A stretch of DNA of 64,000 nucleotides from Aquipuribacter nitratireducens (GTDB lineage Bacteria; Actinomycetota; Actinomycetes; Actinomycetales; JBBAYJ01), in contig NZ_JBBEOG010000001.1 in the NCBI RefSeq assembly GCF_037860835.1, positions 310,001-374,000 of the forward strand, in the 5' to 3' direction. Each line of letters begins with the position of its first letter. Positions within the stretch are counted from its first letter, which is position 1. The position numbers and the translations under genes are program-made. A model generated the notes under the pieces. That model made no database searches and was not told the origin of the DNA. It was given only the letters and a program-made list of their open reading frames with translations. Shown piece after piece: positions 8,485 through 56,671 of the stretch.

Positions 8485-9125
8485 GACGCCTCCTTCGTCC
8501 GGGTCGGCCCGACAGGCCGGGTCTCGAGGATGGCACGCAGCGCGGCCCGCGCCCGGTGCAGGAGCACGCGCTGGTTGGCGGCGGACACCTGGAGCACGGC
8601 GCACGCCTCCTCCGCGGTGAGGCCCTCCACGTCGCGGAGCAGGACGACGAGCCGCTGCCGCGGTGGCAGCTGCGACAGAGCCTGGGCGAGCACGGCGCGC
8701 GTCTCGGCGCGCTCGGCGGCGTCCTCGGGGTCCTCGTGCCACGGCCGGGGTGCGCCGGCGTCCGTCCAGTGCCGTCGCCACGGGTCCTCGGTGCGGAAGC
8801 GGGCCGGGTCGACGCTCGGGCCGCCGTCCTGCTCCGGCAGCAGGACGGTCCGCGCCTCGGTCGTGCCGCGTCGGCGTGCCGTGTAGAGGACGATCCGGAA
8901 CACCCACGTCCGCAGGCTCGCCTCCGCCCGGAAGCCGTCGAGGCCCTCGACGACGGCGAGCCACGCGTCCTGCACGACGTCCCGGGCGCTCTCGTCGGTC
9001 CGCACGCACGTGCGGGCCAGCCTCAGCATGCCCGGCGACCACTGCTCGACGAGGGCGCGGAACGCGGCCTCGTCGCCCGCGAGCAGCCGCTCGACGAGCT
9101 CGGCGTCCGGCCGGACGGTGGGCAC
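8481..9125 (-). CDS. ECF-type RNA polymerase sigma factor
   Basis: A 214-residue sigma-70 family protein. Region 2 reads RLARTCVRTDESARDVVQDAWLAVVEGLDGFR with core-binding and -10-recognition helices (SLRTWVFRIVLYTARRR). After an acidic linker, region 4 reads LPPRQRLVVLLRDVEGLTAEEACAVLQVSAANQRVLLHRARAALRAIL, the -35-binding helix-turn-helix. The GTG at 9125 is the likely start; the frame runs further but without family sequence. It is co-translated with the anti-sigma gene. The regulon is unknown; the redox operon at 4388-8187 is the nearest candidate target. Confidence 0.9.
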   Translation of the reverse strand: MPTVRPDAELVERLLAGDEAAFRALVEQWSPGMLRLARTCVRTDESARDVVQDAWLAVVEGLDGFRAEASLRTWVFRIVLYTARRRGTTEARTVLLPEQDGGPSVDPARFRTEDPWRRHWTDAGAPRPWHEDPEDAAERAETRAVLAQALSQLPPRQRLVVLLRDVEGLTAEEACAVLQVSAANQRVLLHRARAALRAILETRPVGPTRTKEAS

Positions 9126-38140: not shown

Positions 38141-38169
38141 CGTATTCCGTCCCGGTCACCCGACTCCTA
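38141..38169 (+). promoter_or_regulatory. Bipartite promoter-like element 1 (before LuxR gene)
   Basis: CGTATTC (38141-38147), 16-base spacer, CTCCTA (38164-38169), 37 bases before the LuxR-type ATG. The same arrangement occurs at 39322, 41591 and 50986. Confidence 0.5.
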
Positions 38170-38206
38170 CGGTGGTGACGCACCAGTCCCTCCCAGGAGG
38201 TCGCCC

Positions 38207-38980
38207 ATGACGGGTCACCTGCGCGATCACGACGCCGACCGCATGCTGCAGCTGCTCGGGGACGTCGCCGACGACCCCGACCCGGGACCCGCGGCCCCGT
38301 GGACGCTGCTCACCGGCCTCCAGCGGCTGGACCCGTGCGACCTCGAGGTCTCCTACCAGCACCACGACTACGCACGGCAGCGCACGGAGCTCATCCAGGC
38401 CGTCGACCTCGATCACGGCAGGGAGGCCGTGGGCGACGCGGTCGGGGTCGAGCACGTCGAGGACGAGTGGTGGCTGGGCTGGTGGACGAGCGCCTGCTCT
38501 TGGCCGCAGCGCTCCGGCGACCTCCGCAGCGTCGTCCACACGTACGACGTCCACCCGCTGGAGCGCGACCGCCTCGCGGCCACGTCGGCCGACGACGAGC
38601 TCCGCGACTGCATGATCGTGTCGCTTCCCGCGGAGCCGGGGCACGCGCGCCGGATCTGCTTCATGCGGCAGGAGGGCGCAGCGTCCGACGAGCGCGACCG
38701 GGAGGTCCTCACCCGGCTCCGGCCCCACGTGGTGGAGATCGTGCAGGACGCGGAGCGGCGCAGGACGGGGGTGCCGCGCCTCACGCCGCGGGAGCGGGAG
38801 GTGCTCGTGCTCGTCGCGTGCGGGCTCTCGTACCCCGAGGTCGCGGCGCGGCTCGTCGTGTCGACCGCGACCGTCCGCACACACATGGAGCACGTGCGGG
38901 AACGGCTCGGCGTCTCGAGCGCCGCGGCGGCGGTCGCCGTCGCCAAGCCGCACGCGCCCGCCCAGCACAGCGTGCCGTGA
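38207..38980 (+). CDS. LuxR-family transcriptional regulator
   Basis: A 257-residue protein with an unassigned N-terminal domain (about 180 residues, with WWLGWWTSACSWPQRSGDLRSVVHTYDVHP). The C-terminal LuxR helix-turn-helix reads LTPREREVLVLVACGLSYPEVAARLVVSTATVRTHMEHVRERLGVSS (about 205-252). No receiver domain phosphorylation pocket is evident, so it is not a classical two-component response regulator. CAGGAGG stands before the ATG. It shares the GTAT-type promoter element with the protease and patatin units and may be the local regulator. Confidence 0.87.
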   Translation: MTGHLRDHDADRMLQLLGDVADDPDPGPAAPWTLLTGLQRLDPCDLEVSYQHHDYARQRTELIQAVDLDHGREAVGDAVGVEHVEDEWWLGWWTSACSWPQRSGDLRSVVHTYDVHPLERDRLAATSADDELRDCMIVSLPAEPGHARRICFMRQEGAASDERDREVLTRLRPHVVEIVQDAERRRTGVPRLTPREREVLVLVACGLSYPEVAARLVVSTATVRTHMEHVRERLGVSSAAAAVAVAKPHAPAQHSVP

Positions 38981-39309
38981 GGGTCCGCGTCGAGGTCGTC
39001 CTCGCGCCGGGCGTCGCGTCCGTCGTCGCGGCGGAGCTCCGGGTCGACGTCCTCGACGTCACCGAGCACGACGCCCCCGCGCGCCGGGTGTCGCGGGCGA
39101 CGCTGGCGGAGGCGGCACTGGGGAACGAACCCGTCACCCTCGACGTCGAGGTCGCGCTCGACCCGTCCCGCGACCACGTCGTCCGGGCGGTCGCCGACCT
39201 CGCGGGGACCGGCGGCACGGACCCCGGCGACCTCACGACGACGACGCGGGTCGCCGTCTCCGCCGACCACCCGCGCGCACGGCTCGTCCTGCACCGTGCC
39301 ACCGGCTGA
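38977..39309 (+). CDS. YbaY/YscW-like beta-sandwich protein
   Basis: A 110-residue protein starting at the GTG that overlaps the LuxR stop. ELRVDVLDVTEHDAPARRVSRATLAEAALGNEPVTLDVEVALDPSRDHVVRAVADLAG resembles the YbaY (YscW) domain, a small beta-sandwich of lipoproteins, but there is no lipobox or signal peptide. Co-transcribed with the LuxR gene. Function not established. Confidence 0.6.
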   Translation: MRVRVEVVLAPGVASVVAAELRVDVLDVTEHDAPARRVSRATLAEAALGNEPVTLDVEVALDPSRDHVVRAVADLAGTGGTDPGDLTTTTRVAVSADHPRARLVLHRATG

Positions 39310-39321
39310 GAACGAACCGGA

Positions 39322-39351
39322 CGTATCACCCCCGTTCGCCGCGGCCTCCTG
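39322..39351 (+). promoter_or_regulatory. Bipartite promoter-like element 2 (before astacin gene)
   Basis: CGTATCA (39322-39328), 17-base spacer, CTCCTG (39346-39351), 32 bases before the ATG at 39384. Confidence 0.55.
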
Positions 39352-39383
39352 CTGACGCCCGAGTTCCTGCCAGGAGGCTCCTC

Positions 39384-41492
39384 ATGACCGAGAACGACAA
39401 CACCACCCCCGACCCCACCGTCCACGTCGCCGACGAGTCCGGCGCGTCGTCGCAGGTCGAGACCGGCTACCTGTCCGGTCCCGGCTTCACCGACGTCCCC
39501 GTCCGCTACTCCGTCCACGACGGCCACGCGTTCTACCAGGGCTGCATCGACATGGGCCCCGTCGACGAGGTCCGCGCCCACACCGAGGACGTCCGCGCCC
39601 AGGTCGCCCAGCGCATGGACCTGCCGCTCGGCGGTCCCGACCCCACCGGCACCGACCCCGAGGGCGCGTCGCTCGACGGCATCGAGCTGGAGGCGAGGGG
39701 GATCGGCCGCCCGCCGAGCTCCTCCGACCTCTGGACGAACGGCGTCGTGCCCTTCGTCGTCGACGGCGGGCTGCCGAACCAGCAGCGGATCACCGACGCC
39801 GTCGCGCACCTGCGCGACAACACCCCCATCCGCTTCGTCCCCCGCACGACGCAGAACGACTACGTCCGCTTCGTCCGGAACCCGAACGTCGGGTGGAGCT
39901 CCTCGCCGATCGGCCGCCGCGGCGGCGAGCAGATCATCCGGATCTCCGACGGCGCCAGCATGGGCACCGTCGTCCACGAGTGCTTCCACACCCTCGGAGT
40001 GCTCCACGAGCAGAGCCGGTGCGACCGCGACGCCCACGTCACGATCAACTTCGCCAACATCGACGACGACTTCGAGAGCAACTTCGACCGGTTCTGCGCC
40101 GGGTTCCAGGACTACTTCGACTACGACTACGACTCGATCATGCACTACGGCCCGACGGCGTTCTCCACCAACGGCCAGCCGACGATCGTGCCGAAGAAGA
40201 GGGGCGTGACGATCGGCCAGCGCGCCGGTCTCAGCGTCGGCGACCGGCTCACCATCGCCGAGATGTACTCCCGCTTCACCGGCAAGGGCCACACCGGCGT
40301 GTGGCGGCAGGGCAGCGGCGCGTACGGGCTGTGGGTCAACGCGACGTGGGAGTCGTTCGTCCAGAAGTGGCAGCAGTGGGCCGGGCTCGGTCTGCGGCTC
40401 GTCGACATCGACGTCCGGAAGGCCGGCTCGAGCACCCGCTACTCCGGGGTGTGGCGCGCCGGCACGGGTGGCTACGCGCTGTGGGCGAACGCCACGTGGG
40501 AGTCGTTCGTCCAGAAGTGGCAGCAGTGGGGCACCCAGGGCCTGCGGCTCGTCGACATGAGCAGCCACGGCAGCGGCGCGAACGCCCGCTACTCCGGGGT
40601 GTGGCTGCCCGGCACCGGCGGCTACGCCCTGTGGGCCAACGCCTCCTGGGACTCCTTCGTCCAGAAGTGGCAGCAGTGGGGTGCCCAGGGCCTGCGGCTC
40701 GTCGACGTCAACGTCCAGCGGCACGGCGGCGACACCCGCTACTCCGGGGTGTGGCTGCCCGGCACCGGCGGGTACGCGCTGTGGGCGAACGCGTCGTGGG
40801 CGTCGTTCGTCGCCAAGTGGCAGCAGTGGGCCGGCCAGGGCCTGCGGCTCGTCGACATCAACGTCCACCGCAGCGGCTCCGACACCCGCTACTCCGGGGT
40901 GTGGCTGCCGGGCACCGACGGCTACTACCTGTGGGCCAACGCACCGTGGGAGGCCTTCCGCGCACGGTGGGAGGACAACGCGAGCAAGGGCCTGCGTCTC
41001 GTCGACTACGAGCTCACAATCAGCCAGGACGCCGCCGACCTCGACAGTGCCGGTCTCCCGGTCACGGCCGAGGTGCTCGAGGACGGGTTCGGCGGCGTGT
41101 TCGCCGAGGACGGCAGCCCGATGGTGGAGGAGGCCGCCGAGACCACCGACAGTCGCCTCGCCCCGCAGGCTGAGGACGCCGGCGACGGCATGGGCGGTCT
41201 CGTGCTCGCCGGCGCGGACCCCTCGCAGGAGCCCACGGCGGCGTCCGCCGACAGCGGCGACGGCATGGGCGGTCTCGTGAGCGGTGACGAGGCCCCCGCG
41301 ACCAGCGGCGCCTCCGCGGCCGACGGCGGCGACCAGGCGGAGGACGGCATGGGCGGGCTCGTCGCCGGGTCCTCCGGGTCCGCCGAGGTCGACCTCACGG
41401 TGTCGACCGACGGCGCGGCCACCGAGACGACCGACGACGGCCGTGGTGGTCTCGTCGGCCAGCGCTCGCGCACCACGGCGGGCGCCCGCTGA
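39384..41492 (+). CDS. Astacin-type (M12A) metallopeptidase with BTRD1 repeats
   Basis: A 702-residue protein. Peptidase domain at about 110-290: zinc motif HECFHTLGVLHE (His198, Glu199, His202, His208) and Met-turn SIMHYGP (Met253) identify astacin. Then five tandem 50-residue repeats from residue 305, each like YSGVWLPGTGGYALWANA then FVQKWQQWGxQGLRLVD; these resemble the bacterial tandem repeat domain 1 of polyglycine hydrolases. The C-terminal 140 residues are acidic and carry five DGxGGLV-type motifs (residues 567, 601, 626, 654, 685). No signal peptide, Tat motif or lipobox is visible. Astacins are uncommon in actinobacteria; the repeats may bind peptide or glycan. Confidence 0.9.
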   Translation: MTENDNTTPDPTVHVADESGASSQVETGYLSGPGFTDVPVRYSVHDGHAFYQGCIDMGPVDEVRAHTEDVRAQVAQRMDLPLGGPDPTGTDPEGASLDGIELEARGIGRPPSSSDLWTNGVVPFVVDGGLPNQQRITDAVAHLRDNTPIRFVPRTTQNDYVRFVRNPNVGWSSSPIGRRGGEQIIRISDGASMGTVVHECFHTLGVLHEQSRCDRDAHVTINFANIDDDFESNFDRFCAGFQDYFDYDYDSIMHYGPTAFSTNGQPTIVPKKRGVTIGQRAGLSVGDRLTIAEMYSRFTGKGHTGVWRQGSGAYGLWVNATWESFVQKWQQWAGLGLRLVDIDVRKAGSSTRYSGVWRAGTGGYALWANATWESFVQKWQQWGTQGLRLVDMSSHGSGANARYSGVWLPGTGGYALWANASWDSFVQKWQQWGAQGLRLVDVNVQRHGGDTRYSGVWLPGTGGYALWANASWASFVAKWQQWAGQGLRLVDINVHRSGSDTRYSGVWLPGTDGYYLWANAPWEAFRARWEDNASKGLRLVDYELTISQDAADLDSAGLPVTAEVLEDGFGGVFAEDGSPMVEEAAETTDSRLAPQAEDAGDGMGGLVLAGADPSQEPTAASADSGDGMGGLVSGDEAPATSGASAADGGDQAEDGMGGLVAGSSGSAEVDLTVSTDGAATETTDDGRGGLVGQRSRTTAGAR
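40296..41022 (+). repeat. Five 150-bp tandem repeats in the astacin gene
   Basis: Units start at 40296, 40446, 40596, 40746 and 40896, each exactly 150 bp (50 codons), with near identity at the YSGVW, LWAN and GLRLVD segments. The perfect period indicates repeated duplication in frame. The last unit is more diverged. Confidence 0.9.
41082..41456 (+). repeat. DGxGGLV motif repeats in the astacin tail
   Basis: Five copies of a seven-residue motif (DGFGGVF, three DGMGGLV, DGRGGLV) separated by 25-34 acidic, low-complexity residues at the protein C-terminus. Spacing is not exact, unlike the upstream repeats. Confidence 0.8.
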
Positions 41493-41520
41493 CCCCGGCA
41501 CCCTCCCCGCGCACGACCAC

Positions 41521-41551
41521 GCGCCCCGTCGCCCACCCGGCGGCGGGGCGC
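41521..41551 (+). terminator. Hairpin terminator after astacin gene
   Basis: 13-bp arms (41521-41533 and 41539-41551) with one G-U pair and a 5-base loop, 28 bases after the stop. It separates the astacin unit from the subtilisin unit, which has its own promoter-like element. Confidence 0.7.
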
Positions 41552-41590
41552 GGTCGCGTGTCCCGGGACGTGTCCGATCACCTGTCAGCA

Positions 41591-41620
41591 CGTATCAGCG
41601 CGACCGGTGACCCGCTCCTG
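41591..41620 (+). promoter_or_regulatory. Bipartite promoter-like element 3 (before subtilisin gene)
   Basis: CGTATCA (41591-41597), 17-base spacer, CTCCTG (41615-41620), 46 bases before the ATG at 41667. Confidence 0.55.
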
Positions 41621-41666
41621 GTGAGGGCTGCGGGACACGCAGACGCACACGAGGAGGCACACGGAC

Positions 41667-44408
41667 ATGGAGCGGTATTTCTACCGGCGCGGGGAGCGGG
41701 TCCCGGTCACCGAGGTCGACGGCGTCGTCGCCGTGCAGGTCGCGGACGAGCAGCGGCAGGCGCTGCTGGACGGCGACCCCGCGGGCGACGAGCGGGTGCG
41801 CGGCCTGTTCGGCGCGCCCGCCACCGGGCCCCGCGTCACCGACGCCGAGCTCGACGTCGACGCGGAGGAGGCCCGCGGACTCCGGGAGTCCGGCTGGCTG
41901 CTCGTGCGGCCCGTCGCGGGGCTCACCGCCCGAGGCGGCGACCTGCCCGAGGCGGCGGAGGACGTCGGGACCGTCTTCACGCAGGCGGACGGGCACGTCC
42001 TCATCGGCACCCGGAGCATCGTCGTCCAGTTCGACCCCGAGCTCAGCGAGGAGGAGGCCCGCGCCCGGGCGGCGCAGCGCGGCCTCACGATCGTCCGCGA
42101 GCTGCGCTTCGCGCCCAACCAGTTCGAGGTCGCGGCCGCGGCGGGGGAGGACGTCCTCGAGGTCGCGAACGACCTGCAGGAGAGCGGGGAGACCGTCTTC
42201 GCCGAGCCGTCCTTCGTCGAGTACATCGGGCAGCGGCTGCGGCCCGGCGACCCCACGTACGCCCAGCAGTGGCACCTGCGCAACACCGGTGCCGCCGGCG
42301 GTGTCGCGGGCGCCGACATCGCCGCCGAGCAGGCGTGGGACGTCACCCGCGGCGCGGGCGTCACCGTCGCCGTCATCGACAACGGCTTCGACGTCACGCA
42401 CGGCGACCTCTCGCCCGCCCTCACCGCCGGCTGCGGCTTCTTCGACGGCTCCGGCACGTTCCGCCGCACCCTCACCGGCTACCCGGACAGCGACCACGGC
42501 ACGTTCTGCGCCGGGATGGCCGCCGCCCGCCAGAACACGCTCGACGGGTCCGGTTCCGCCCCGCTGGCCGACCTGCTGCTCGTCGCGTCCCGGGGGGACC
42601 AGGTCGGCACGCAGGCGACCCTCGCCCGCGCGGTCGCGTACGCCGCCGACCCGCGCACGGAGGTCGCGACGGCGAACCCCGCCGACGGCGCCGACGTCAT
42701 CGTGTCGAGCCTCGGCCCGAACGGCGCGAACTGGGCGCTCACGAGCGTGCTGCAGAACGCGATCGAGTTCGCGGCGCAGACCGGCAGGGAGGGCCGCGGC
42801 ACGCCGATCTTCTGGGCGAGCAGCAACGGCAACGTGGACATCGCCCTCGACCAGGTCGTGTCCCACCGCGACGTCATCGCCGTCGGCCGGTCCCGTCGCA
42901 CCGACCTGGAGGACAACAGCGCCCGCGGCGAGGAGCTCGACTTCCTCGCGCCCGGCGTCAACGTGGTGAGCACCGCCTCCGGCGGTGGCACCCGCACCGA
43001 CACGGGGACGAGCTTCGCCGCGCCCCTGGCCGCGGGGGTGGGGGCGCTGCTGCTCGCGGTGAACCCCGACCTGTCGGCCGACGACGTCCGCACGATCATG
43101 CGACGCACGTGCGACAAGGTCGGCGGGGTCACCTACGACGCGGCGGGGCACAACCTCGACTACGGCCACGGCCGCGTCAACGCGTTCCGGGCCGTCGTCC
43201 ACGCGCTCAGCACCGTCGCCGAGCGCTCCGGCGTCGACACCGACCACGACGGCGACGGGCTCGCGGAGGTCCCGGTCGTGAGCCCGTGGGGGCTCGGGAC
43301 CCTCGAGTACCGCGCCGGCGGCCTCACCCACCTGTCGATGGCGCCGAACGGCAGCCGCTTCGGTGGCTGGCTCCTCAACACCCGCGACAACCGCTTCCCC
43401 GTCCTCGGGGACCTCGACCGGGACCGCCGCTCCGAGCTGTTCGTCACCAGCCCCTGGGGCATCGGCGTCCTCGACGTCTCCGGCGGCTCCTACCGGGGCC
43501 GGATGCTCGCCCCGAACGGCACCCGCTTCGGGGGCTGGCTGCTCAACACCGCCGACAACCGGTTCGGTCCGGTCGGCGACTTCGACGGTGACGGCCGCGA
43601 CGAGGTGCTCGTGACGAGCCCGTGGGGGATCGCCCTCCTCAAGCTGACCGGGCGCACGTTCTCCACGGTCGTCATGGCCCGCAACGGCACCCGCTTCGGC
43701 GGCTGGCTGCTCAACACCGCCGACAACGTGTTCGGTCCGGTCGGCGACTTCGACGGCGACGGCCGCGACGAGGTCGTCGTGCGCAGCCCGTGGGGGATCG
43801 GCGTGCTGAAGCTGTCCGGCACGACCTTCGCCCCCGCGATGATGGCGCCGAACGGCACCCGGTTCGGCGGGTGGCTGCTCAACACCGCAGACAACTGGTT
43901 CGGCCCGGCCGGGGACCTCGACGGCGACAGCCGCGACGAGCTCGTCATCGCGAGCCCCTGGGGTGTCGGTGTCCTCGAGCTCTCCGGCGGCACCCTGTCC
44001 GCCGCGACGATGGCGCCGAACGGCACCCGTTTCGGTGGCTGGCTGCTCAACACCTTCGACAACCGCTTCCGGGCGGCCGCCGACCTCGACGGGGACAGCC
44101 GGGACGAGCTGTTCGTCACGAGCCCGTGGGGGGTGGGCGTGCTCCGGCTGGCCGGCGGGTCGCTGACGAGCGTCATGCTGCAGCCCAACGGCACCCGCTT
44201 CGGTGGGTGGCTGCTCAACACGGGCGACAACGCGTTCCGGCGGTTCGCGCCGATCACGCGGACCGGTCAGGCGGAGGTCCTCGTCGAGAGCCCGTGGGGC
44301 ATCGGGGTGCTGCGGCTGAACGGGGGGACCTTCGACGCGCCGTTCATGGCGCCGAACGGCACCCGGTTCGGCGGCTGGCTCCTCAACACGGCCGACAACC
44401 GGTTCTGA
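41667..44408 (+). CDS. Subtilisin-family (S8) serine peptidase with seven 56-residue repeats
   Basis: A 913-residue protein. An N-terminal part of about 200 residues includes an inhibitor-like prodomain (IGTRSIVVQFDPELSEEEARARAAQRGLTIVRELRFAPNQFEVAA). The S8 domain has Asp238 (VIDNGFDVTH), His277 (DSDHGTFCAGMAA), oxyanion Asn in WASSNGN, and Ser449 (GTSFAAPLAAG). From about residue 532 a repeat region follows: SPWGxGVL, APNGTRFGGWLLNTADNRF, then GDFDGDGRDEV, of FG-GAP/VCBS type, with FGGWLLNT recurring every 56 residues. No signal peptide is seen (MERYFYRRGERVPVT). It shares its promoter-like element with the astacin gene, so a common role is likely. Confidence 0.9.
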   Translation: MERYFYRRGERVPVTEVDGVVAVQVADEQRQALLDGDPAGDERVRGLFGAPATGPRVTDAELDVDAEEARGLRESGWLLVRPVAGLTARGGDLPEAAEDVGTVFTQADGHVLIGTRSIVVQFDPELSEEEARARAAQRGLTIVRELRFAPNQFEVAAAAGEDVLEVANDLQESGETVFAEPSFVEYIGQRLRPGDPTYAQQWHLRNTGAAGGVAGADIAAEQAWDVTRGAGVTVAVIDNGFDVTHGDLSPALTAGCGFFDGSGTFRRTLTGYPDSDHGTFCAGMAAARQNTLDGSGSAPLADLLLVASRGDQVGTQATLARAVAYAADPRTEVATANPADGADVIVSSLGPNGANWALTSVLQNAIEFAAQTGREGRGTPIFWASSNGNVDIALDQVVSHRDVIAVGRSRRTDLEDNSARGEELDFLAPGVNVVSTASGGGTRTDTGTSFAAPLAAGVGALLLAVNPDLSADDVRTIMRRTCDKVGGVTYDAAGHNLDYGHGRVNAFRAVVHALSTVAERSGVDTDHDGDGLAEVPVVSPWGLGTLEYRAGGLTHLSMAPNGSRFGGWLLNTRDNRFPVLGDLDRDRRSELFVTSPWGIGVLDVSGGSYRGRMLAPNGTRFGGWLLNTADNRFGPVGDFDGDGRDEVLVTSPWGIALLKLTGRTFSTVVMARNGTRFGGWLLNTADNVFGPVGDFDGDGRDEVVVRSPWGIGVLKLSGTTFAPAMMAPNGTRFGGWLLNTADNWFGPAGDLDGDSRDELVIASPWGVGVLELSGGTLSAATMAPNGTRFGGWLLNTFDNRFRAAADLDGDSRDELFVTSPWGVGVLRLAGGSLTSVMLQPNGTRFGGWLLNTGDNAFRRFAPITRTGQAEVLVESPWGIGVLRLNGGTFDAPFMAPNGTRFGGWLLNTADNRF
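43260..44405 (+). repeat. Seven 168-bp repeats in the subtilisin gene
   Basis: The FGGWLLNT codons start at 43359, 43527, 43695, 43863, 44031, 44199 and 44367, exactly 168 bp apart. Units contain SPWGxG and, in most copies, the Ca-binding-like GDxDGDxRDE. The last copy ends at the stop codon. Confidence 0.9.
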
Positions 44409-44440
44409 CGGGGGTGGGGACGGTGTTCTTCTGACGTGCC

Positions 44441-45436
44441 CTACGCCGCGACGGCGGTCGCCGCGGCCGTGAGCTCGAGCGAGCGGACCCGGGAGGTGGG
44501 GTCGGGGGACTGGAACGCCACGACCAGCTCGTCCGCGTCCGCGTGGGCGGCGAAGCGGTCGAGGTACTCCCGCACCTCCTCAGGCGTGCCCGCCACGCTG
44601 TACCGCAGCATGTCGGCGAGCTGGGCGCCCTGTGCGCTCGCGAGCAGCGCGTCGACCTCGTCGTCTCCCAGCAGCGGGGCGTCGGGGCCGCGCTGGAGGA
44701 TCCGCTTCACGAACGACCGCCGGACGGTCGCGAGCTGCCGCTGCGCGTCGGTGGCGTCGTGGTCGGCGACGACGTTGACGGCGGCGAGGACGTACGGCTC
44801 CGCCAGCTGCTCCGACGGCCGGAAGTCGCGCCGGTACAGCGCGACCGCCTGCTCGAGCATCGCGGGCGCGAAGTGCGAGGCGAACGCGTACGGCAGGCCG
44901 AGGGCCGCCGCCACCTGCGCGCCGTAGAGGGAGGACCCGAGCACGTACAGGGGCACGCGGGTGCCCGCGCCGGGCACCGCCTGCACGCCCGGCACGCGGG
45001 ACTCACCGGCGAGGTAGGCCTGCAGCTCGACGACGTCGTCGGGGAAGCGCTCGGCGGCGGCCGGGTCGCGCCGCAGCGCGTACGTCGTCGTCCGGTCGCT
45101 GCCCGGTGCGCGGCCGAGCCCGAGGTCGATGCGGCCCGGGTGCAGCGACGCCAGGGTGCCGAACTGCTCGGCGACGACGAGCGGGGAGTGGTTCGGAAGC
45201 ATGACCCCGCCCGCGCCCAGCCGGATCCTCGAGGTGTGCGCGGCGACGTGCGCGACGACCACCGCGGTCGCCGACGACGCGATGGTCGGCATGTTGTGGT
45301 GCTCGGCGTACCAGACGCGGCGGTAGCCGGCGGCTTCGGCCGCGCGGGCGAGGTCGACGCTCGCGCGGAGGCTGTCGCCGACGGTCTGCCCCTCGGCGAC
45401 GGGAGCGAGGTCGAGGACGGAGAGCGGGACGGTCAC
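44441..45436 (-). CDS. LLM-class flavin-dependent oxidoreductase (MsnO8 type)
   Basis: A 331-residue bacterial luciferase-like protein. [47 protein letters not shown] is the N-terminal signature of the MsnO8 group, with [46 protein letters not shown] following. FMN or F420-type reduced flavin is the likely cofactor. The GTG at 45436 is preferred to a TTG at 45448. Convergent with the subtilisin gene. Function unknown; no sulfur or antibiotic genes are adjacent. Confidence 0.87.
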
Positions 45437-45492
45437 GTCCGGTGCCAACCGCCCGCGCCGTGCGCTCCTTCCCGCCGTCCGGCAGCGGACGG

Positions 45493-45530
45493 CGACGGGC
45501 CCGCCCCTCCGAGGAGGGACGGGCCCGTCG
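45493..45530 (-). terminator. Hairpin terminator after the beta-helix gene
   Basis: Perfect 11-bp arms (45493-45503 and 45520-45530) with inner complementary bases, 23 bases after the minus-strand stop at 45553. Confidence 0.65.
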
Positions 45531-45552
45531 CGTGCCGTGCGGCGAGGAACCG

Positions 45553-47490
45553 TCAGGGAAGCGGGTAGCGCACGACGTACTCCGGGTCCTCGTAGTCGTC
45601 CGGGTCACCCGGGTCCGGGATGCCGTCGACGCGACCGCCGACCCCGTTGACCACGTGGGCGATGATCCCCGGGCCGCTGAGGTTCTTCGTCATGATGTGG
45701 TGGAGCACGACGCCCGGGGTCTCGGGGACCTCGTAGCCGTCCTCGGTGACGATGGTCGGGTCGTTGCGGTTGAACGCGTAGACACCGCCGCCCCACAGCG
45801 TGTGCCGCTCGACGTCGTCGGCGACCTTGTAGCCCGCCCAGCCGAGCGTGCCGTCCGGCTGCGTCCACTCCGCCTGCGACGGCGGGTCGTACGGCAGCTC
45901 GTTCTGGAACAGGACGACGAACCCGTCCTCGCCGTTCCACACGCTGTTGTACTCCTGGAAGTGCTCGACGAAGTACCCGGTCGCGGTGACCCGGTCGCCG
46001 TTGACGACGACGCCGTTGCGGCCGATGTTGGTCCGCCACCGCTCGTTGTCGCCGAAGACGCCGTCGGTGCGGTCGAAGCCCTCGATGCCGTGGTCGGCGC
46101 GCCACACCCACGTGTGGTCGATGAGGACGTCGTCGCTGTTGACCTCGAGCGCGATGTCGGTCTTGCCGACGTACGGCCCGCCGACGCGGAAGTACACGTC
46201 GGACAGCGTCGTCGGGTTCGAGCCGCTCGACTTCCGGGCGGCCTTCGGCGTGTTCTTCTTCCCGACCTGCAGGAGCACCGGCGACTCGACCTCGCCCGCG
46301 TCGACGGTGACGCCCGCGACGACGACGCCCGGCACGTCGGCGACGGTCAGCGGGACCGCCCCGCCGACCGAGTGCAGCGTCGCGAGGCCGATGCCGAGCA
46401 CGACGGTGTCGGGCCGCTTCACCTGGATGCTGCGGGAGACGTCGTAGACGCCCGGGGTGAGGAGCAGGTGCCTGCCGCGGGCCAGCTGGTTGTTGATCTC
46501 CTGGACGGAGTCGTCCGGCGTCGCGACGAAGAACTGCGTGATCGGGATCGAGCGGCCGGCCGTCATGCCGTCCGCCCACGTGATGCCGCGGGTGCCCTGC
46601 TTCGCGACGGGGACCCGGACCTGCCAGGCGCCGGCGTCGTCGACGTAGAGGTACGGCTTCTCCCGGCTGACCGGCGTCGTCTCGAGCGTCGTGTACGGCG
46701 GGTCGGGGTACGTGCTGTCGTCCGGGGCGCCGACGACGCCGGAGAACACCTGGTTCCACACCGCGTTGGTCCAGGTGCCGAACTCGCTGTTGCGGGCGTA
46801 CCACTGCTGCTGCGAGCCGTTGATCACGACGCCCGCGCGGGAGTCGGCGATGAACCCACCCGAGGCGAACGACGGGCCCGTGCAGTAGTCCATCAGCGTG
46901 AGGTTGGCGCCCTGCACGTCGACCCGACGCATCGAGACGGCCTGGGAGACGGCCCAGAAGTTCGCCGACGCCTCGCAGCCGCCCTGCCCGGCCGTGTTCA
47001 CGTCGATCGTGAGGTTGGAGATGCCGCGCCAGAAGTTGTTGAGGGCGAAGCAGCCGACGAACTCGGGGTTCGTCGGGTCGTCGAAGCACTGGTTGTAGAC
47101 CTCGACGGCGCCGTTGATGACGACGTCGCCGGGGGAGGCGCCGAGGCCGATGACCTCCGTGTAGTAGCCGACCTTCACCTGCAGCGGCTCGGCGTCGGTG
47201 CCGTAGGTGCCGGGCAGGAAGAGGAACGCGTGCCGGCCGGAGCCCATCTCGTCGCTCACCTGCTGGGCGTGGACGGCGTCGACCGTGGCCTGGATCTCGC
47301 TGACGGGCATGCTGGGGTCGAAGACGACGGCCGAGCCCACGTCCGGGTCGGTGGCCGAGGTCGTGGGCGGCGGCGCCGCGGTGGCGGTGACCGCGGAGGC
47401 GAGGACGAGACCGGCGGCGGCGACGACGGCGGGCACGACCCGCCGGGCGACGCCACGCCGTCGGCGGGCAGGGGGTGACAGGGGACTCAC
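45553..47490 (-). CDS. Secreted right-handed beta-helix protein
   Basis: A 645-residue protein with an Arg-rich Sec signal ([31 protein letters not shown]). [47 protein letters not shown] and [38 protein letters not shown], then a second half with [34 protein letters not shown], show the rung pattern of a pectate-lyase-superfamily beta-helix. Similar proteins are common in Streptomyces and are sometimes labelled coagulation-factor 5/8 or cyclase, without evidence for either. It likely acts on or binds an extracellular polysaccharide. It starts at a GTG and is divergent from the antiporter gene. Confidence 0.8.
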
Positions 47491-47699
47491 GGTGGACTCC
47501 TTCGTCCGGGAGCAGGGGCCGTCCGGTGTCGCCGACGAACAGGTGGCGCGGACGGCCGTACTGTGTCACGACAGCCGGAACGGCGGGTACCGGTCGGTGA
47601 CGAGCAGCGTCGCGTACGCCTGCACCCGCAGCGCCCAGCGGCCGACCCGGGACCGAGGTCCCCCTCGACGGGTCCGGCCCCCGGCGGCAGGCTGACCGC

Positions 47700-49007
47700 G
47701 TGGAGGAGTCGTCGCTCGCCGCGCAGTTCGCCGTGCTCGCCGCCGGTGTCGTCGCCTTCGCCGTCGTGTCGCGCCGCACCGCACCGTGGCCGCTCACCAT
47801 GCCGATGGTCTTCGCCGCCTTCGGGCTGCTGTGCGCCGTCACCGGGCTCGTACGCCTCGGCGTCGAGCCGACGGCGACGGCCGTGCTCGCCGAGCTCGCG
47901 CTCGGGGTCATCCTCTTCGTCGACGCGGCCCGCATCGACGTGCGCGCCCTCGCCCGCGAACGGGGGCTGCCGCTGCGGCTGCTCGGGCTCGGTCTGCCCC
48001 TCACGCTGCTGCTCGGCGCCGTCGTCATGTGGGCGGTCGCGCCCGGGCTCGGCCTGCTCGGGGCCCTCCTGCTCGCGGCGATCCTCGCCCCGACGGACGC
48101 CGCCCTCGGGCTGGCCGTCGTGGAGGACCCCGCCGTGCCGCAACGGGTCCGTCAGGGGCTCACCGTCGAGTCGGGACTCAACGACGGCCTCGTGCTCCCC
48201 GTCGTGCTCTTCTGCCTCGCCGCGCTCGGCGGAGGGGACGGGGCAGGCGAGGGCCCGGCGTACTGGGCGGCGTTCGTCCTCGGTCAGGTGGGCGGCGGGA
48301 CGCTGCTCGGGATCGGCGTCGGGGCCCTCGGCGGCTGGGCGCTCGCACGTGCCGCCCGCGCCGGCTGGGTCGAGGGCCTCTGGCGGCAGCTGGGGACGCT
48401 CGCGCTCGCAGGACTCACGCTCGCCGCGGCGGAGACGCTCGGCACGAACGGCTTCATCGCCGCCTTCGTCGCGGGTCTCGCCGTCGGCGTCGTGTCCCGC
48501 CGGGTGGGGCACACGGGCGACAGCGCCCCGACGGAGTACACCGAGGACACCGGCCAGCTGCTCGCGGTCGTCGCGTTCTTCGCCTTCGGCAACGTGCTGC
48601 TCGCGGAGTTCGCGGTCGACCTCACATGGCAGGTCGCGGTGCTCGCCCTCTTCTCGCTCACGCTCATGCGGCTCGTGCCCGTCGCCGTGTCCCTGCTGGG
48701 CTCGCGGGCGCGACGCGCCACCGTCCTGTTCGTGGGCTGGTTCGGTCCCCGCGGTCTCGCCTCGATCCTCTTCGGCCTCCTCGTGCTGGAGGCGGAGGTG
48801 CCGGCGTCGGAGGAGCTGTTCTCCGTCGTGACGTGGACCGTTGCGGCGAGCATCGTCCTGCACGGCGCGAGCGCGTCGTGGGGGGCGGCCCGCTACGGCC
48901 GCTGGTACGCCCGCGTGCGGCGGGACATGCCCGCGGAGCAGGCGGCCGGGATGCCCGAGGCGGGCAGCGCGATGGCGCACCGGCCGCGGCGGGGTCGCGC
49001 CCGCTGA
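47700..49007 (+). CDS. CPA1-family Na+/H+ (cation:proton) antiporter
   Basis: A 435-residue membrane protein with about twelve helices. LAAILAPTDAALGLAVVEDPAVPQRVRQGLTVESGLNDGLVLPVVLF contains the paired acidic residues of the ion site in NhaP-type CPA1 exchangers; NGFIAAFVAGLAVGVV and FGNVLLAEFAVDLTWQ are other family parts. The start is a GTG at 47700 (alternatives exist a little upstream). The C-terminal tail of about 30 residues is cytoplasmic and Arg-rich. It exports Na+ or K+ for protons in the membrane. Confidence 0.88.
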   Translation: MEESSLAAQFAVLAAGVVAFAVVSRRTAPWPLTMPMVFAAFGLLCAVTGLVRLGVEPTATAVLAELALGVILFVDAARIDVRALARERGLPLRLLGLGLPLTLLLGAVVMWAVAPGLGLLGALLLAAILAPTDAALGLAVVEDPAVPQRVRQGLTVESGLNDGLVLPVVLFCLAALGGGDGAGEGPAYWAAFVLGQVGGGTLLGIGVGALGGWALARAARAGWVEGLWRQLGTLALAGLTLAAAETLGTNGFIAAFVAGLAVGVVSRRVGHTGDSAPTEYTEDTGQLLAVVAFFAFGNVLLAEFAVDLTWQVAVLALFSLTLMRLVPVAVSLLGSRARRATVLFVGWFGPRGLASILFGLLVLEAEVPASEELFSVVTWTVAASIVLHGASASWGAARYGRWYARVRRDMPAEQAAGMPEAGSAMAHRPRRGRAR

Positions 49008-49040
49008 CCGGCCCCGCGCCCGGGGCGTAGCCTCGCCGGG

Positions 49041-50225
49041 ATGGCAGTGGACACCGACCCGCTCGTCGCCCGCATGCGCGGGTTCGGGACGACGATCTTC
49101 GCCGAGATGTCGGCGCTCGCGACGTCGACGGGGGCGGTCAACCTGGGGCAGGGCTTCCCCGACTTCGACGGTCCGCCGCAGATGCTCGAGGCCGCCCGCG
49201 AGGCGATCCGCACAGGGGTGAACCAGTACCCGCCCGGACCGGGCACGCCGGAGCTGCGCGGGGCGGTCGCCGCGCACCAGCTCCGCTTCCACGGGCTCGG
49301 TTACGACCCCGGGAGCGAGGTCGTCGTCACCGCGGGAGCGACCGAGGCCGTGACGGCGGCGGTGCTCGCGCTGTGCGAGGTGGGCGACGAGGTCGTCGTG
49401 CTCGACCCCCTGTACGACTCCTACGCGGCGGCGGTGGCACTCGCCGGCGCCGTCGTGCGCCCCGTGCCGCTGCGTCCCGGGCCGGACGGGCGCTTCGCCT
49501 TCGACGAGGCCGACCTGCGGGGCGCGTTCGGGCCCCGCACCCGGCTCGTCCTCCTCAACTCCCCGCACAACCCGACGGGCACCGTCCTGAGCCGTGAGGA
49601 GCTCGCGCTCGTGGCGGAGCTGTGCCTCGAGCACGACGTCCTCGCCGTCACCGACGAGGTGTACGAGCACCTCGTCCTCGACGGGGAGCACGTCCCGCTC
49701 GCGACGTTCGACGGCATGCGGGACCGGACGCTCCAGGTGTCCTCGGCCGGCAAGTCGTTCTCCTGCACCGGGTGGAAGATCGGCTGGGCGTGCGGGCCCG
49801 CGGTACTCACGGGTGCCCTCATGCGGGTCAAGCAGTACCTCACGTACACCAACGGTGCCCCGTTCCAGCCCGCCGTCGCCCTCGCCCTCGGCCTCGGCGA
49901 CGACTACTTCGACGCGTTCACCGCGAGCATGCGCGGCAAGCGGGACCGGCTCGTGGCGGGGCTGCAAGAGGCCGGGTTCGGCGTCGAGCGCTCGCAGGGC
50001 ACGTACTTCGTCGCCGCCGACATCCGGCCCGTCGCCGGGGAGCAGGACGGTCTCGCGTTCTGCCGGTCCCTGCCGGAGCGGGTCGGGGTGGCGGCGGTGC
50101 CGATGCAGGTCTTCTACGCCACGCCGGGGGAGGGGCGGCACCTCGTGCGGTTCACCTTCGGCAAGCGCGACGACGTGCTCGACGAGGGGGTCCGCCGCCT
50201 CGTCGGCTCGCGCGAGCCGTCGTGA
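49041..50225 (+). CDS. Fold-type I PLP aminotransferase (DapC/KAT-like)
   Basis: A 394-residue aminotransferase: VNLGQGFPDFDGP, NQYPPGPGTPELRGAVA, VTAGATEAVTAAVLAL (PLP phosphate), LLNSPHNPTGTV, VTDEVYEHLVLDG and the Schiff-base lysine in SSAGKSFSCTGWKIGW, followed by RVKQYLTYTNGAPFQPAVA. This pattern fits the KAT/methionine or N-succinyldiaminopimelate aminotransferase group; the substrate is not settled. It stands between the antiporter and a kinase gene, 33 and 63 bases apart, on the same strand. Confidence 0.87.
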   Translation: MAVDTDPLVARMRGFGTTIFAEMSALATSTGAVNLGQGFPDFDGPPQMLEAAREAIRTGVNQYPPGPGTPELRGAVAAHQLRFHGLGYDPGSEVVVTAGATEAVTAAVLALCEVGDEVVVLDPLYDSYAAAVALAGAVVRPVPLRPGPDGRFAFDEADLRGAFGPRTRLVLLNSPHNPTGTVLSREELALVAELCLEHDVLAVTDEVYEHLVLDGEHVPLATFDGMRDRTLQVSSAGKSFSCTGWKIGWACGPAVLTGALMRVKQYLTYTNGAPFQPAVALALGLGDDYFDAFTASMRGKRDRLVAGLQEAGFGVERSQGTYFVAADIRPVAGEQDGLAFCRSLPERVGVAAVPMQVFYATPGEGRHLVRFTFGKRDDVLDEGVRRLVGSREPS

Positions 50226-50288
50226 CACGAGCCGTACGCCGGCCGTCGAGTGGGATCGGCCGTCCGGCCGGCGGCAGGAGCGGGGAGG

Positions 50289-50966
50289 ATGTCTCCCGTG
50301 GTTGACCTCGAGGACCTCGTACGGCGGGCGTGGCAGCTGGTTCCGACCGACGGGCGGGCCATGCTCGGCATCACCGGCAGCCCCGGCGCGGGCAAGACGA
50401 CGCTCGCGGCGGCCCTCGCCGAGCGCGTGCAGGCGCTCCACGGCGAGGGCGAGGAAGGCGGCGCGGTCGCGGTGCACGTGCCGATGGACGGCTTCCACCT
50501 CGCCAACGCGACGCTCGACCGGCTCGGGCTGCGCGATCGCAAGGGCGCCGTCGAGACCTTCGACGGGTGGGGTTTCGTCGCCCTGCTGCGGCGCCTCGCC
50601 GCCGAGACCGACCACACCGTCTACGCCCCCGGCTTCGACCGGGCCGTGGAGGAGGGGGTGACGGGCGTCCACGCGGTCCCGGCGTCAGCCCGCCTCGTCG
50701 TCGTCGAGGGCAACTACCTCCTCGTCGACCGGGAGCCGTGGTCGCAGGTGCGGGACCTGCTCGCCGAGGCGTGGTTCGTCGAGGCCTCGCCGCAGGAGCG
50801 CACGGCGAGGCTCGTGGTCCGGCACGAGGCCGGCGGCCGCTCACCCGAGGCGGCGCGCGCGTGGGCCGACACCGTCGACGGGTCCAACGCGGTCCTCATC
50901 GACGCGACGCGGGAGCGGGCGGACCTCGTCGTCAGCGGCGTCGCACTCCGCACCGCCGGTCCCTGA
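50289..50966 (+). CDS. P-loop nucleoside/carbohydrate kinase family protein
   Basis: A 225-residue P-loop kinase: Walker A ITGSPGAGKTT, VPMDGFHLANATLDRLGLRDRKGAVETFDGWGF and VVVEGNYLLVDREPW (Walker B) match the uridine kinase/PanK-like 'nucleoside/nucleotide kinase' family (includes FrcK-type). It phosphorylates a small sugar, nucleoside or vitamin; no substrate clue in the context. The ATG at 50289 and a GTG at 50298 are both possible starts; GGGGAGG lies at the first. Confidence 0.85.
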   Translation: MSPVVDLEDLVRRAWQLVPTDGRAMLGITGSPGAGKTTLAAALAERVQALHGEGEEGGAVAVHVPMDGFHLANATLDRLGLRDRKGAVETFDGWGFVALLRRLAAETDHTVYAPGFDRAVEEGVTGVHAVPASARLVVVEGNYLLVDREPWSQVRDLLAEAWFVEASPQERTARLVVRHEAGGRSPEAARAWADTVDGSNAVLIDATRERADLVVSGVALRTAGP

Positions 50967-50985
50967 CCCACGATCCGCCCCCGGC

Positions 50986-51014
50986 GGTATCACTCGCGCG
51001 ACGGCGGGCTCCTG
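50986..51014 (+). promoter_or_regulatory. Bipartite promoter-like element 4 (before stalk protein operon)
   Basis: GGTATCA (50986-50992), 16-base spacer, CTCCTG (51009-51014), 29 bases before the GTG at 51044. Confidence 0.55.
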
Positions 51015-51043: not shown

Positions 51044-52465
51044 GTGGACACGAGCCCACGGCAGCAGCACCGGGCCCACCCTGCCCGGACGCTGCCGTGG
51101 CTCCTCACCCTCGCGCTGGCTCTCGGCATGTGGGTGGTGGGTCCCGCTGCGCTCGCGCAGCCCGCCGACGGTCGTGTCGTCGTCGACTTCGACACCGGCA
51201 CGGCCGCGCGCGACGCCGGCGTGGAGGTCGTCGGTGGGGAGCGCGCGGAGGTCGGCGGTGACGGCGTCCTCTTCCTGCCGACCGTGTGCCGCGCCGCCTG
51301 CCCCGACGCCGTCGAGCTGCGCCTGCCGGGACCGGCGGTGTCCGTGCAGGTGAGCGTCGCCGTGGTCGTCCCCGACTCCGTCGCGAGCGGCGCCGCGGTC
51401 GTCGCCGCGCCGGCGCTGGTCCCCGCTGCGCCGGCTGCGCTGCTCGAGGGCCTCGACAGCTCCGGCGACGCGACCGTCGAGCCGGTGGGGACCGCGCTCC
51501 CGCTCGCGGTCGGGCTGCCCCTCGACCCCGACGCGGAACGGTCCGTCGCGCTCCGCGACCCGGCGGGCCGCACGAGCACGGTCCGGGTGCGGCTGGTCGC
51601 GCCGGCCGAGGCGCAGGCCGCGGTCCTCGTCGTCGACGACCTCGTCCTCGAGCCGGCACGCCCCGCCCTCGACCTGTCCGCGAGCGCGGTCACGCTCGCC
51701 GAGCCGGGCAGCGGTGCCACCGTCGTGGCGACGAACTCGGGCAGCACGACGCTCACCGGCATCGTGATCACCCTCGACCCGGACCCCGGTGACGGTCTCG
51801 ACGTCGACGCGTCCGCGTGCGACGGCGACCTCGGACCCGGTGGCGAGTGCGCCCTCCGGCTGACGGCGGGGGAGGTGACGGACGACCTCGACGTCCTCCT
51901 CGTGGTCGGCTCCGAGGGGACGGGTCCGCTGGCGCGCGCCGTCGTCACCGTGCCCGCGGTCGTCCCCGAGCCGGAGCCGGCACCCGAGCCGGAACCGGCA
52001 CCCGAGCCGGAGCCGGCACCCGAGCCGGAGCCGGCACCCGTGCCGGAGCCGGCACCCGAGCCGGAGCCGGCACCCGAGCCGGAGCCGGCACCCGAGCCGG
52101 TACCGGAACCTGCACCGGAGCAGCCCGGGGACACCGTCGCACCCGGTCTCGACCTGCTGGCGGCGACGCCCGTGGCGCTCGGCGGCGCGCTCCTCGTCGT
52201 GCTGCTCCTCGTCGCGGGTCTCGGTGGTGCGCTCCTGCAGCGCCGCGTCGCCCGTCGTCGCGTCGAGCGGCGCCGACCCCCCCGCGACCCCGTTCCGCGG
52301 GCACGCTGGGACGTCACCCGCGACGACGGCTCCCAGCGCGTCAGCGGCGCCGGCGCCCCGCTGGTGACCGCGACGGCGTGGGCGCCGTCGCCCCGCACCG
52401 ACCTGCACGAGGACACGACACCCCGCACGACCCCGGCGGGCCGCACGACAGGAGGCACGACATGA
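51044..52465 (+). CDS. Membrane-anchored secreted protein with PEPAPE stalk
   Basis: A 473-residue protein. Signal peptide [25 protein letters not shown], then about 270 residues of beta-rich extracellular domain without recognised family; the part [31 protein letters not shown] resembles a choice-of-anchor/DUF11 fold. A Pro-Glu-Ala stalk of nine PEPAPE-like units (about 308-360) follows, then a membrane helix ([28 protein letters not shown]) and a basic cytoplasmic tail of about 80 residues. This order suggests a surface protein spanning the wall with a tail inside the cell. It is coupled to the next gene by ATGA and has the shared promoter-like element. Confidence 0.8.
51965..52123 (+). repeat. 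18-bp PEPAPE coding repeats
   Basis: About nine units of a mainly 18-bp repeat coding Pro-Glu-Pro-Ala-Pro-Glu with small variations, producing the extended stalk. Confidence 0.85.
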
Positions 52466-53043
52466 CGACCGTCACGCACCTGCTCGGCGTCGACACCGAC
52501 GACGGCGCCGCCGCCCTCTCCCGCGGTCTCGCGGCCGCGCTGCGCGCCGTCCCGGACCTCGGCGTCGACGGCCTCCGGCTGCCGGTCGACGACCTCGTCG
52601 ACGTCGTCCGGGAGCTGCTCTCGGTCCCCGTCGGCAACCTCGCGGTGCGGGCGTGGCAGGGCGAGCGGGCCGTCGTCGCCGCCCGGCGGCGCACGCTCGA
52701 GCACCCGGGGGAGCGGGTCGTCGTCGAGCTGTTCCACCACACCGTCACGAGCACGCAGGAACCGACCGTCGACCTGTCGGTCGAGGGCCTGGGACGCCGG
52801 CCCGTGCTGCGCCTCACGCTCGAGGTGACCCTCGACGTGGACGCGCTGCTCGTCACCGTGAGCGGCGGGCGGGTCGAGCGGCTCTCGCCCGGCCGTGCGT
52901 CGGCGACGGCGGAGCTGTCGGTCTCCGGTGCGACGCTGCTGCGCCGGCACGTGGACGTCGTCGGCCTTCGGCCGGACCCGCCACCGCCTGGAGTCGACCG
53001 GGGCCCGGCGGCACGCGTGCCCGGCCAGGAGGTGCGGTCGTGA
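52462..53043 (+). CDS. Uncharacterised 193-residue operon protein
   Basis: A soluble protein with a helical N-terminal half ([47 protein letters not shown]), a beta-rich part ([36 protein letters not shown]) and a Pro-rich tail. No known family was recognised. It overlaps the stalk protein gene by 4 bases and the patatin gene by 4 bases (GTGA), so it is made together with both and is probably a partner of the patatin. Confidence 0.7.
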
Positions 53044-55849: not shown

Positions 55850-56671
55850 ATGAGCCTGTCGCGTCGTTCCCTCCTGCGTGGTGCCGTCCTCGTCCCCGGC
55901 GCGGTCGGGGCCGGGCTCCTGACCGGCCCGGCGTCGGCCGCCGTCACGCCGCTCGCGCCCGTCGCGAGCATCACCCCCGCGAAGGGGCACCACCCGCTGG
56001 TCCCGGGCTGGACGGGCATCAAGGTGAAGGTCGTCCAGCACCGCCTCGGCCTGCCCGCGAGCAGCTGGGAGGCGGTCGACGCCACGACGCTCGCGGCGGT
56101 GAAGGACTTCCAGCGCGCCAACGGCCTGCGAGTCGACGGTGTCGTCGACTGGCGGACGTGGGGGGCGATGGCGACCGGTCGCAGCTGGGGCATGGACCGG
56201 TGGCAGGCCACCCCGCGCTGGGGGCTGTCGGCGGGGCGGGCCCGTCGCGTCGAGACGATGGTCGAGCACGCGATGACGTACGTCGGGCACGAGTACGTGT
56301 GGGGCGGGGCCGGCCGCCCGCACGAGGGCGTCGACTGCTCGGGGCTGGTGCTGCAGTGCCTCTACCGGGCGGGACTGGACCCGCAGCCGATCTCCGTCGA
56401 CCGGCACGTCGAGCCCACGTACCGGACGTCCTACGAGTTCTACCGCCACCCGCGGCTGGTGCACGCGCCGCTGGCCCGGGCCCGTCGCGGCGACCTCGTC
56501 TTCTACCGGAACACCTCGACCGGCCGCATCAACCACGTCGCGATCTACCTCGGCGACGGACGGCTCGTCGAGGCGATGAGCGGCCCGAACGTCGTCCGGG
56601 TCGCCCCGCTGAAGCGGACCCTGTCGACGCAGTCGCCCATGCCGGAGGTCGTCCGGCCGTTCCCGGTGTGA
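55850..56671 (+). CDS. Tat-exported peptidoglycan-binding NlpC/P60 hydrolase
   Basis: A 273-residue protein. Tat signal SRRSLLRGAVLVPGAVGAGLL, then a peptidoglycan-binding domain (IKVKVVQHRLGL..AAVKDFQRANGLRVDGVVDWRTWGAM) and NlpC/P60 domain with catalytic Cys163 (GVDCSGLVLQC) and His229 (RINHVAIYLGDGRLVEA). It cleaves D-Glu/mDAP or related stem-peptide bonds in the cell wall. A typical SD-like GAGGGGG lies upstream of the ATG. It is 59 bases after the patatin gene and may be in the same or its own unit. Confidence 0.88.
   Translation: MSLSRRSLLRGAVLVPGAVGAGLLTGPASAAVTPLAPVASITPAKGHHPLVPGWTGIKVKVVQHRLGLPASSWEAVDATTLAAVKDFQRANGLRVDGVVDWRTWGAMATGRSWGMDRWQATPRWGLSAGRARRVETMVEHAMTYVGHEYVWGGAGRPHEGVDCSGLVLQCLYRAGLDPQPISVDRHVEPTYRTSYEFYRHPRLVHAPLARARRGDLVFYRNTSTGRINHVAIYLGDGRLVEAMSGPNVVRVAPLKRTLSTQSPMPEVVRPFPV

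Follow-up and report, generated by a model that had tools for sequence, protein, structure and literature searches.

A short two-part sequence recurs upstream of several genes in one stretch of the Aquipuribacter nitratireducens genome (64,000 nucleotides, positions 310,001 to 374,000 of contig NZ_JBBEOG010000001.1; hereafter the window), and the question raised by this locus is what reads it. The original prediction, made by eye, described four such elements, interpreted them either as the −35 and −10 boxes of one alternative sigma factor or as a shared activator site, and joined the downstream genes into one regulon. Comparison with related genomes leads us to consider it highly likely that one ECF54-type extracytoplasmic function (ECF) sigma factor uses the element as its promoter, with GTATCA as −35 box, CTCCT as −10 box and 16 or 17 bases between them, and drives from it both its own operon and a scattered, protease-rich regulon. 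Such a sigma factor, encoded on another contig, would read GTATCA-16/17-CTCCT promoters, switch on its own operon and also drive the genes for an astacin and a subtilase and the stalk/patatin/NlpC operon that starts at 51044, its activity presumably being released by proteolysis. The sigma-factor alternative is thereby upheld and given a specific candidate. A shared activator is less probable, since the motif goes with the ECF operon and, like a promoter, allows a spacer of either 16 or 17 bases.

All four elements were found in the window where they had been placed, with the spacers and the distances to the start codon that had been given for them (Table 1). The pattern originally drawn from them matches four times on the two strands of the window, whereas 300 dinucleotide shuffles gave 0.003 matches on average and never more than 1; since this pattern was derived from its own sites, the weight lies on independent tests. 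One of these employed a weight matrix trained on 25 sites at orthologous ECF operons, none of them from the window's genome, with a training median of 23.5 bits. By this matrix the sites at 50987, 41592 and 39323 are the top three of the window with 23.8 bits each. The site upstream of the LuxR-type gene (38142) ranks fourth with 11.7 bits, close to a background site (11.4 bits) and short of the 13.2 bits that 20 shuffled windows reach as the median of their top scores. One of these 20 reached 23.5 bits, so that a lone high score is no proof, but chance hardly accounts for three such high-scoring sites, each directly upstream of a gene. Three of the four elements are strong, and the LuxR-gene site is inseparable from background. 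The single regulon first proposed is thus retained for the genes of the two proteases and for the operon at 51044, with the LuxR gene a doubtful member whose first box reads GTATTC and whose matrix score is that of background.

Searches of the whole genome gave a clear excess. In the own genome (G000; 3.83 Mb in 26 contigs), GTATN{18,20}CTCCT was found 18 times and its reversed control not once, and the tighter pattern GTATCRN{16,18}CTCCTS 12 times, again against 0. When the spacer was left free between 5 and 32 bases, 34 matches were found against 12 controls, with a spacer of 16 or 17 in 12 of the 34; one more beyond these 12, at C2:324318, was matched in its shortest reading, with a spacer of 13, and also fits 17. 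Nine of the 12 sites of the tighter pattern lie at most 150 nt upstream of a called same-strand gene start, compared with 6.4% of random positions, and two of these nine also fall inside a called gene. The gene caller was a crude heuristic based on GC content at third codon positions, which misses genes, and an uncalled ECF sigma-factor gene accounts for one of the three misses among the 12 sites. Weaker sites in the same genome carry GTATCG (L002, L003, L016 and L018) or GTATCA (L013).

This ECF gene is the candidate for the reader of the element. It lies on another contig (G000:C3:326832-327506, minus strand), with one of the 12 sites 127 nt upstream of its start. The protein matches NCBIfam TIGR02937 (sigma70-ECF) with 59.9 bits (cut-off 42.9) at residues 58-216, covering the whole model, and Pfam Sigma70_r2 with 29.9 bits (cut-off 24); Pfam sigma4 gave no match at 0.001. 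The 30 best orthologue loci, the own locus included, were examined, and 29 were assessable, the locus in G121 ending at a contig edge. Gene order takes two forms in these 30 loci: the ECF gene comes first, with the box upstream of it, in 20, and a subtilase gene comes first in 10, where the visible boxes lie upstream of the subtilase. A box stands at the operon head in 29 of the 29 assessable loci, reading GTATCA in 27, GTATCT in one and GTATTT in one (a doubtful case some 0.5 kb upstream), while at this base composition chance would place GTATCA in about 0.9% of stretches of 250 bases. CTCC follows 16 or 17 bases beyond the box in 22 of the 29, and the remaining seven second boxes read CTCGGG, CTCTGG, CTCTCC, CACCTG (twice), GTCCTT and CTCTTT. 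The element is also present in all six named actinobacterial loci (two Nocardioides, one Nocardioidaceae metagenome-assembled genome and three Phycicoccus), with GTATCA in four, GTATCT in two and CTCC at 16 in every case; the other 11 of the 17 named loci were left out as distant matches outside Actinobacteria, 22-31% identical.

Motif and ECF gene also occur together across genomes. GTATCAN{16,17}CTCC was counted against its reversed control in 198 genomes, a close orthologue of the ECF protein being defined by E<=1e-38. The 33 genomes with a close orthologue hold 140 motifs against 44 controls (132 against 44 without the own genome), the 17 with intermediate ECF matches 45 against 24, and the other 148 genomes 277 against 454. 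Counted by genome, motifs outnumber controls in 26 of the 33 that carry a close orthologue and in 33 of the 148 without one, and the association of motif and orthologue has a Mann-Whitney p of 2e-10, uncorrected for relatedness. Among 108 GTATCA...CTCCT pairs in 16 of the 33 genomes, a selection made in part by motif excess, a spacer of 16 or 17 is seen in 58, whereas the other spacings between 6 and 30 have 2.2 pairs each on average. From these observations we infer that the sigma factor encoded at G000:C3:326832-327506 binds the element, and with it the transcription-start sites of the genes behind.

Among the alternatives, a promoter read by a different sigma factor survives best and is still unlikely. 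The genome has 23 Sigma70_r2 matches, and a few motifs occur in several genomes that lack a close orthologue; however, the GTATCA box was found at only one of the 23 sigma-factor loci as fetched, that of this ECF gene, and the motif excess follows the orthologues of this ECF. A two-part site for an activator or repressor, for example a LuxR-type regulator, is a little less probable again. Such a site is suggested by the LuxR gene adjoining the elements, and by a LuxR gene downstream of a site in a relative (L143 in G090), but the two boxes differ in sequence, form no palindrome and allow spacers of 16 and 17, and the element is fixed at the heads of ECF operons and follows the ECF gene from genome to genome. 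It could further be argued that CTCCT is the anti-Shine-Dalgarno arm of a hairpin in which the ribosome site is hidden, as CTCCT pairs with AGGAG in the predicted folds of all four leaders and the fold of the 41615 leader beats its shuffles (z −4.5). This was rejected as the main explanation and is very improbable, since the remaining three leaders fold no better than their shuffled versions (z −1.0, 0.3 and 0.05) and CTCC keeps its distance from GTATCA, not from the start codon, which at the ECF gene of the own genome is the said 127 nt away. Chance resemblance in a pattern picked by eye and fitted after the fact is the likeliest reading of the LuxR site, given its background score, and scarcely credible for the other three, given the genome-wide 12 against 0, the matrix scores, the spacing peak and the conservation at the ECF operon.

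Some observations weigh against an ECF promoter with the regulon proposed here. Fewer motifs than controls are present in five of the 33 orthologue-bearing genomes and equal numbers in two, and the genomes are related, so that their counts are not independent. None of five other astacin homologues is preceded by both boxes in exact form: one (in G001) has GTATCC-16-CTCC, one (in G034) has GTATCA with CTCC at 14, and three have neither, and the comparison upstream of astacin genes lends the element weak support. The subtilase of the window found no relative at E<=1e-40 in the 198 genomes, with at most 7 candidates scored per genome. Finally, of 42 sites at 40 loci in relatives, 11 have a gene start called on the same strand no more than 70 nt downstream and 15 more have one within 400 nt, which leaves 16 of the 42 without a called downstream gene start; 13 of the 42 are inside a called gene.

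Table 1. Predicted promoter elements in the window and the genes downstream of them (coordinates are those of the window)
Feature	Position	Strand	Evidence and remarks
Weak look-alike, not counted as a member	38141..38169	+	CGTATTC-16-CTCCTA (first box GTATTC) upstream of LuxR gene; start codon 37 nt on; 11.7 bits, background level
LuxR-type regulator gene, 257 aa	38207..38980	+	Pfam GerE, E 2.6e-13; candidate only
Predicted ECF-type promoter	39322..39351	+	CGTATCA-17-CTCCTG (−35 GTATCA, spacer 17, −10 CTCCTG); astacin gene start 32 nt on; 23.8 bits
Astacin (M12A) protease, 702 aa, BTRD1 repeats	39384..41492	+	Pfam PF01400, E 1.3e-41; zinc motif HECFHTLGVLH
Predicted ECF-type promoter	41591..41620	+	CGTATCA-17-CTCCTG (−35 GTATCA, spacer 17, −10 CTCCTG); subtilase gene start 46 nt on; 23.8 bits
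Subtilase (S8), 913 aa, FG-GAP repeats	41667..44408	+	Pfam PF00082, E 1.8e-33
Predicted ECF-type promoter	50986..51014	+	GGTATCA-16-CTCCTG (−35 GTATCA, spacer 16, −10 CTCCTG); 51044 operon start 29 nt on; 23.8 bits
473-aa protein, signal-like N terminus (by eye), proline/glutamate-rich stalk; operon gene 1	51044..52465	+	Sequence read
Small unnamed gene overlapping both neighbours; operon gene 2	52462..53043	+	Sequence read
Patatin-like protein, 916 aa; operon gene 3	53040..55790	+	Pfam PF01734, 35.5 bits (cut-off 27.7)
NlpC/P60 wall hydrolase with peptidoglycan-binding domain; probably operon gene 4, 60-nt gap	55850..56671	+	Pfam

The predicted regulon extends well beyond the window. Elsewhere in the own genome one target (L022) is an M4 protease gene followed by an emfourin-like gene, the match of the latter (22.1 bits, E 2.1e-4) falling short of the Pfam cut-off of 27. 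Another (L021:8016-10446, on G000:C1, minus strand) has GTATCG-17-CTCCTG ahead of genes for a 126-aa protein and a caspase-WD40 protein; in the latter a plausible His is present and a Cys was not picked up by the pattern used. Further predicted targets are the ECF gene together with that of its small partner protein, a run of unknown genes up to one of a nuclease/phosphatase family, and the gene for a D-arabinono-lactone-oxidase-type protein; some other genes are less certain. A CHAT target was considered and rejected for the own genome, where the sole CHAT gene (G000:C8:153758) has no GTAT in its 3.1-kb locus, about 0.6 kb of it upstream. No obvious signal peptide was seen by eye at the N terminus of the astacin, the subtilase or the M4 protein. 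A PADLOC scan of 10 proteins hit only two of them: the caspase-WD40 protein, by a caspase and a HEAT/ARM model, and the subtilase of the window, by subtilase and IetS models. The unit of the 126-aa protein and the caspase-WD40 protein resembles caspase conflict systems, and the 126-aa protein, for which no Pfam family was found, may resemble EACC1. The C-terminal part of the astacin holds a low-complexity stretch (41184-41456) with a short motif in four copies, three of them DGMGGLV and one DGRGGLV.

In the relatives, 19 of 26 downstream proteins were scanned for families. Six of the 19 carry a peptidase domain, namely CHAT, calpain C2, caspase C14, S8 and two trypsin-like, one of these below the Pfam cut-off. 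The other 13 are GH127, PIG-L, LuxR, LTD/nuclease, AMIN-like, DUF6345, AAA/regulator, peptidoglycan-binding, lipoprotein-like or weakly lyase-like proteins, or have no family. One locus (L155:1839-5446, in G033:C230) has elements upstream of both a subtilase and a caspase gene, beside a more distant ECF homologue. Genes of the PIG-L deacetylase type lie downstream of GTATCA elements with similar spacers at three loci (L128, L151 and L154, in G015, G062 and G188), the family scan covering L151 only.

The operon of the relatives consists of genes for a subtilase, the ECF sigma factor, a protein of about 165 aa and a TPR-CHAT protein, or begins with the ECF and small-protein genes and has the subtilase third. 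It fits the ECF54 type, an assignment made from gene neighbourhood. Carboxypeptidase, subtilase and CHAT have been described as neighbours of ECF54, for which proteolytic control without an anti-sigma factor was proposed (PMC8999054). The subtilase and CHAT neighbours are shared by the operons of the relatives but not by that of the window's own genome, where the ECF gene is followed only by a small gene (about 174 aa) and the protease genes lie outside the ECF operon. The small protein of the operon belongs to no carboxypeptidase family of Pfam or NCBIfam, and the promoter sequence and the dispersed regulon are proposed here.

The small protein of about 165 aa gave no meaningful Pfam match and no NCBIfam match at 0.01. 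In one relative it has a weak CarboxypepD_reg match (E 0.096), and this likeness may be the reason for the carboxypeptidase listed among ECF54 neighbours. A structure model built from five sequences predicts two N-terminal helices and a beta-sandwich, with a mean predicted local distance difference test (pLDDT) score of 66 and 76-90 in the sandwich blocks; a structure search with it gave no match at E<=0.001, and the best E of a sequence search of the PDB was 0.14. By analogy with Csx30 the small protein is a candidate inhibitor of the ECF sigma factor. In the CASP-sigma system Csx30 inhibits the sigma factor, which is thought to be released when Csx29 cleaves Csx30 (PMC10028731). The likeness of the present operon to this Craspase system is an ECF sigma factor adjoining a TPR-CHAT protease. 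A Csx29 profile matched one cassette CHAT protein (E 1.8e-7, 30.4 bits, far under the cut-off of 300), and the small protein shows no likeness to Csx30 in NCBIfam at 0.01. The AAHG and SAC motifs of the His/Cys dyad are kept in all four CHAT proteins inspected.

One may speculate further, and with more doubt than confidence, that these operons are in principle a stand-alone Craspase-like circuit common in Actinobacteria. The small helix/beta-sandwich protein would keep the ECF54-type sigma factor inactive until, upon a stress or invasion signal, the TPR-CHAT protease of the same operon and/or the subtilase cleaved it. The freed sigma factor could then fire a dispersed arsenal of astacin, subtilase, M4, caspase, calpain, trypsin-like and CHAT proteases, alongside a wall hydrolase and a lipase-like protein, the whole acting as a self-amplifying programme of defence or death. 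A link between caspase-type systems and ECF sigma factors was proposed earlier for EACC2 neighbourhoods (PMC8195603). The present case resembles EACC1/EACC2 in the 126-aa protein followed by the caspase-WD40 protein behind the element, and differs in that the ECF gene does not adjoin the caspase gene in the own genome. Likewise, the M4 gene with its emfourin-like neighbour (a match below cut-off) recalls the protealysin-emfourin operon, whose Serratia enzyme is intracellular (PMC9505478), and differs from it by the ECF-type promoter predicted ahead of the M4 unit.

No GTATCA/CTCCT promoter for an ECF sigma factor is described in the literature searched, and an earlier description in the main ECF classification papers is possible. 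The sigma-factor group itself is already known; the promoter and the protease regulon appear to be new within that literature. A group known mainly by its gene neighbours would be given a defined promoter sequence and a set of targets that can be tested. As the predicted targets span unrelated protease families, the caspase type included, a coordinated programme of proteolysis in actinobacteria may be under a single regulator. The promoter would also make a simple reporter, both for the activating signal and for whether cleavage of the partner protein is the switch.

Two minor features of the window may be added. A lone GTATCA on the minus strand (38089-38084) faces away from the LuxR gene towards an open reading frame for a small membrane protein; it has no CTCC at 16 or 17 bases and was not counted. 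A further Sigma70_r2 match, with 42.8 bits, is encoded within the window at 8868-9053 on the minus strand (G000:C1:318868-319053).

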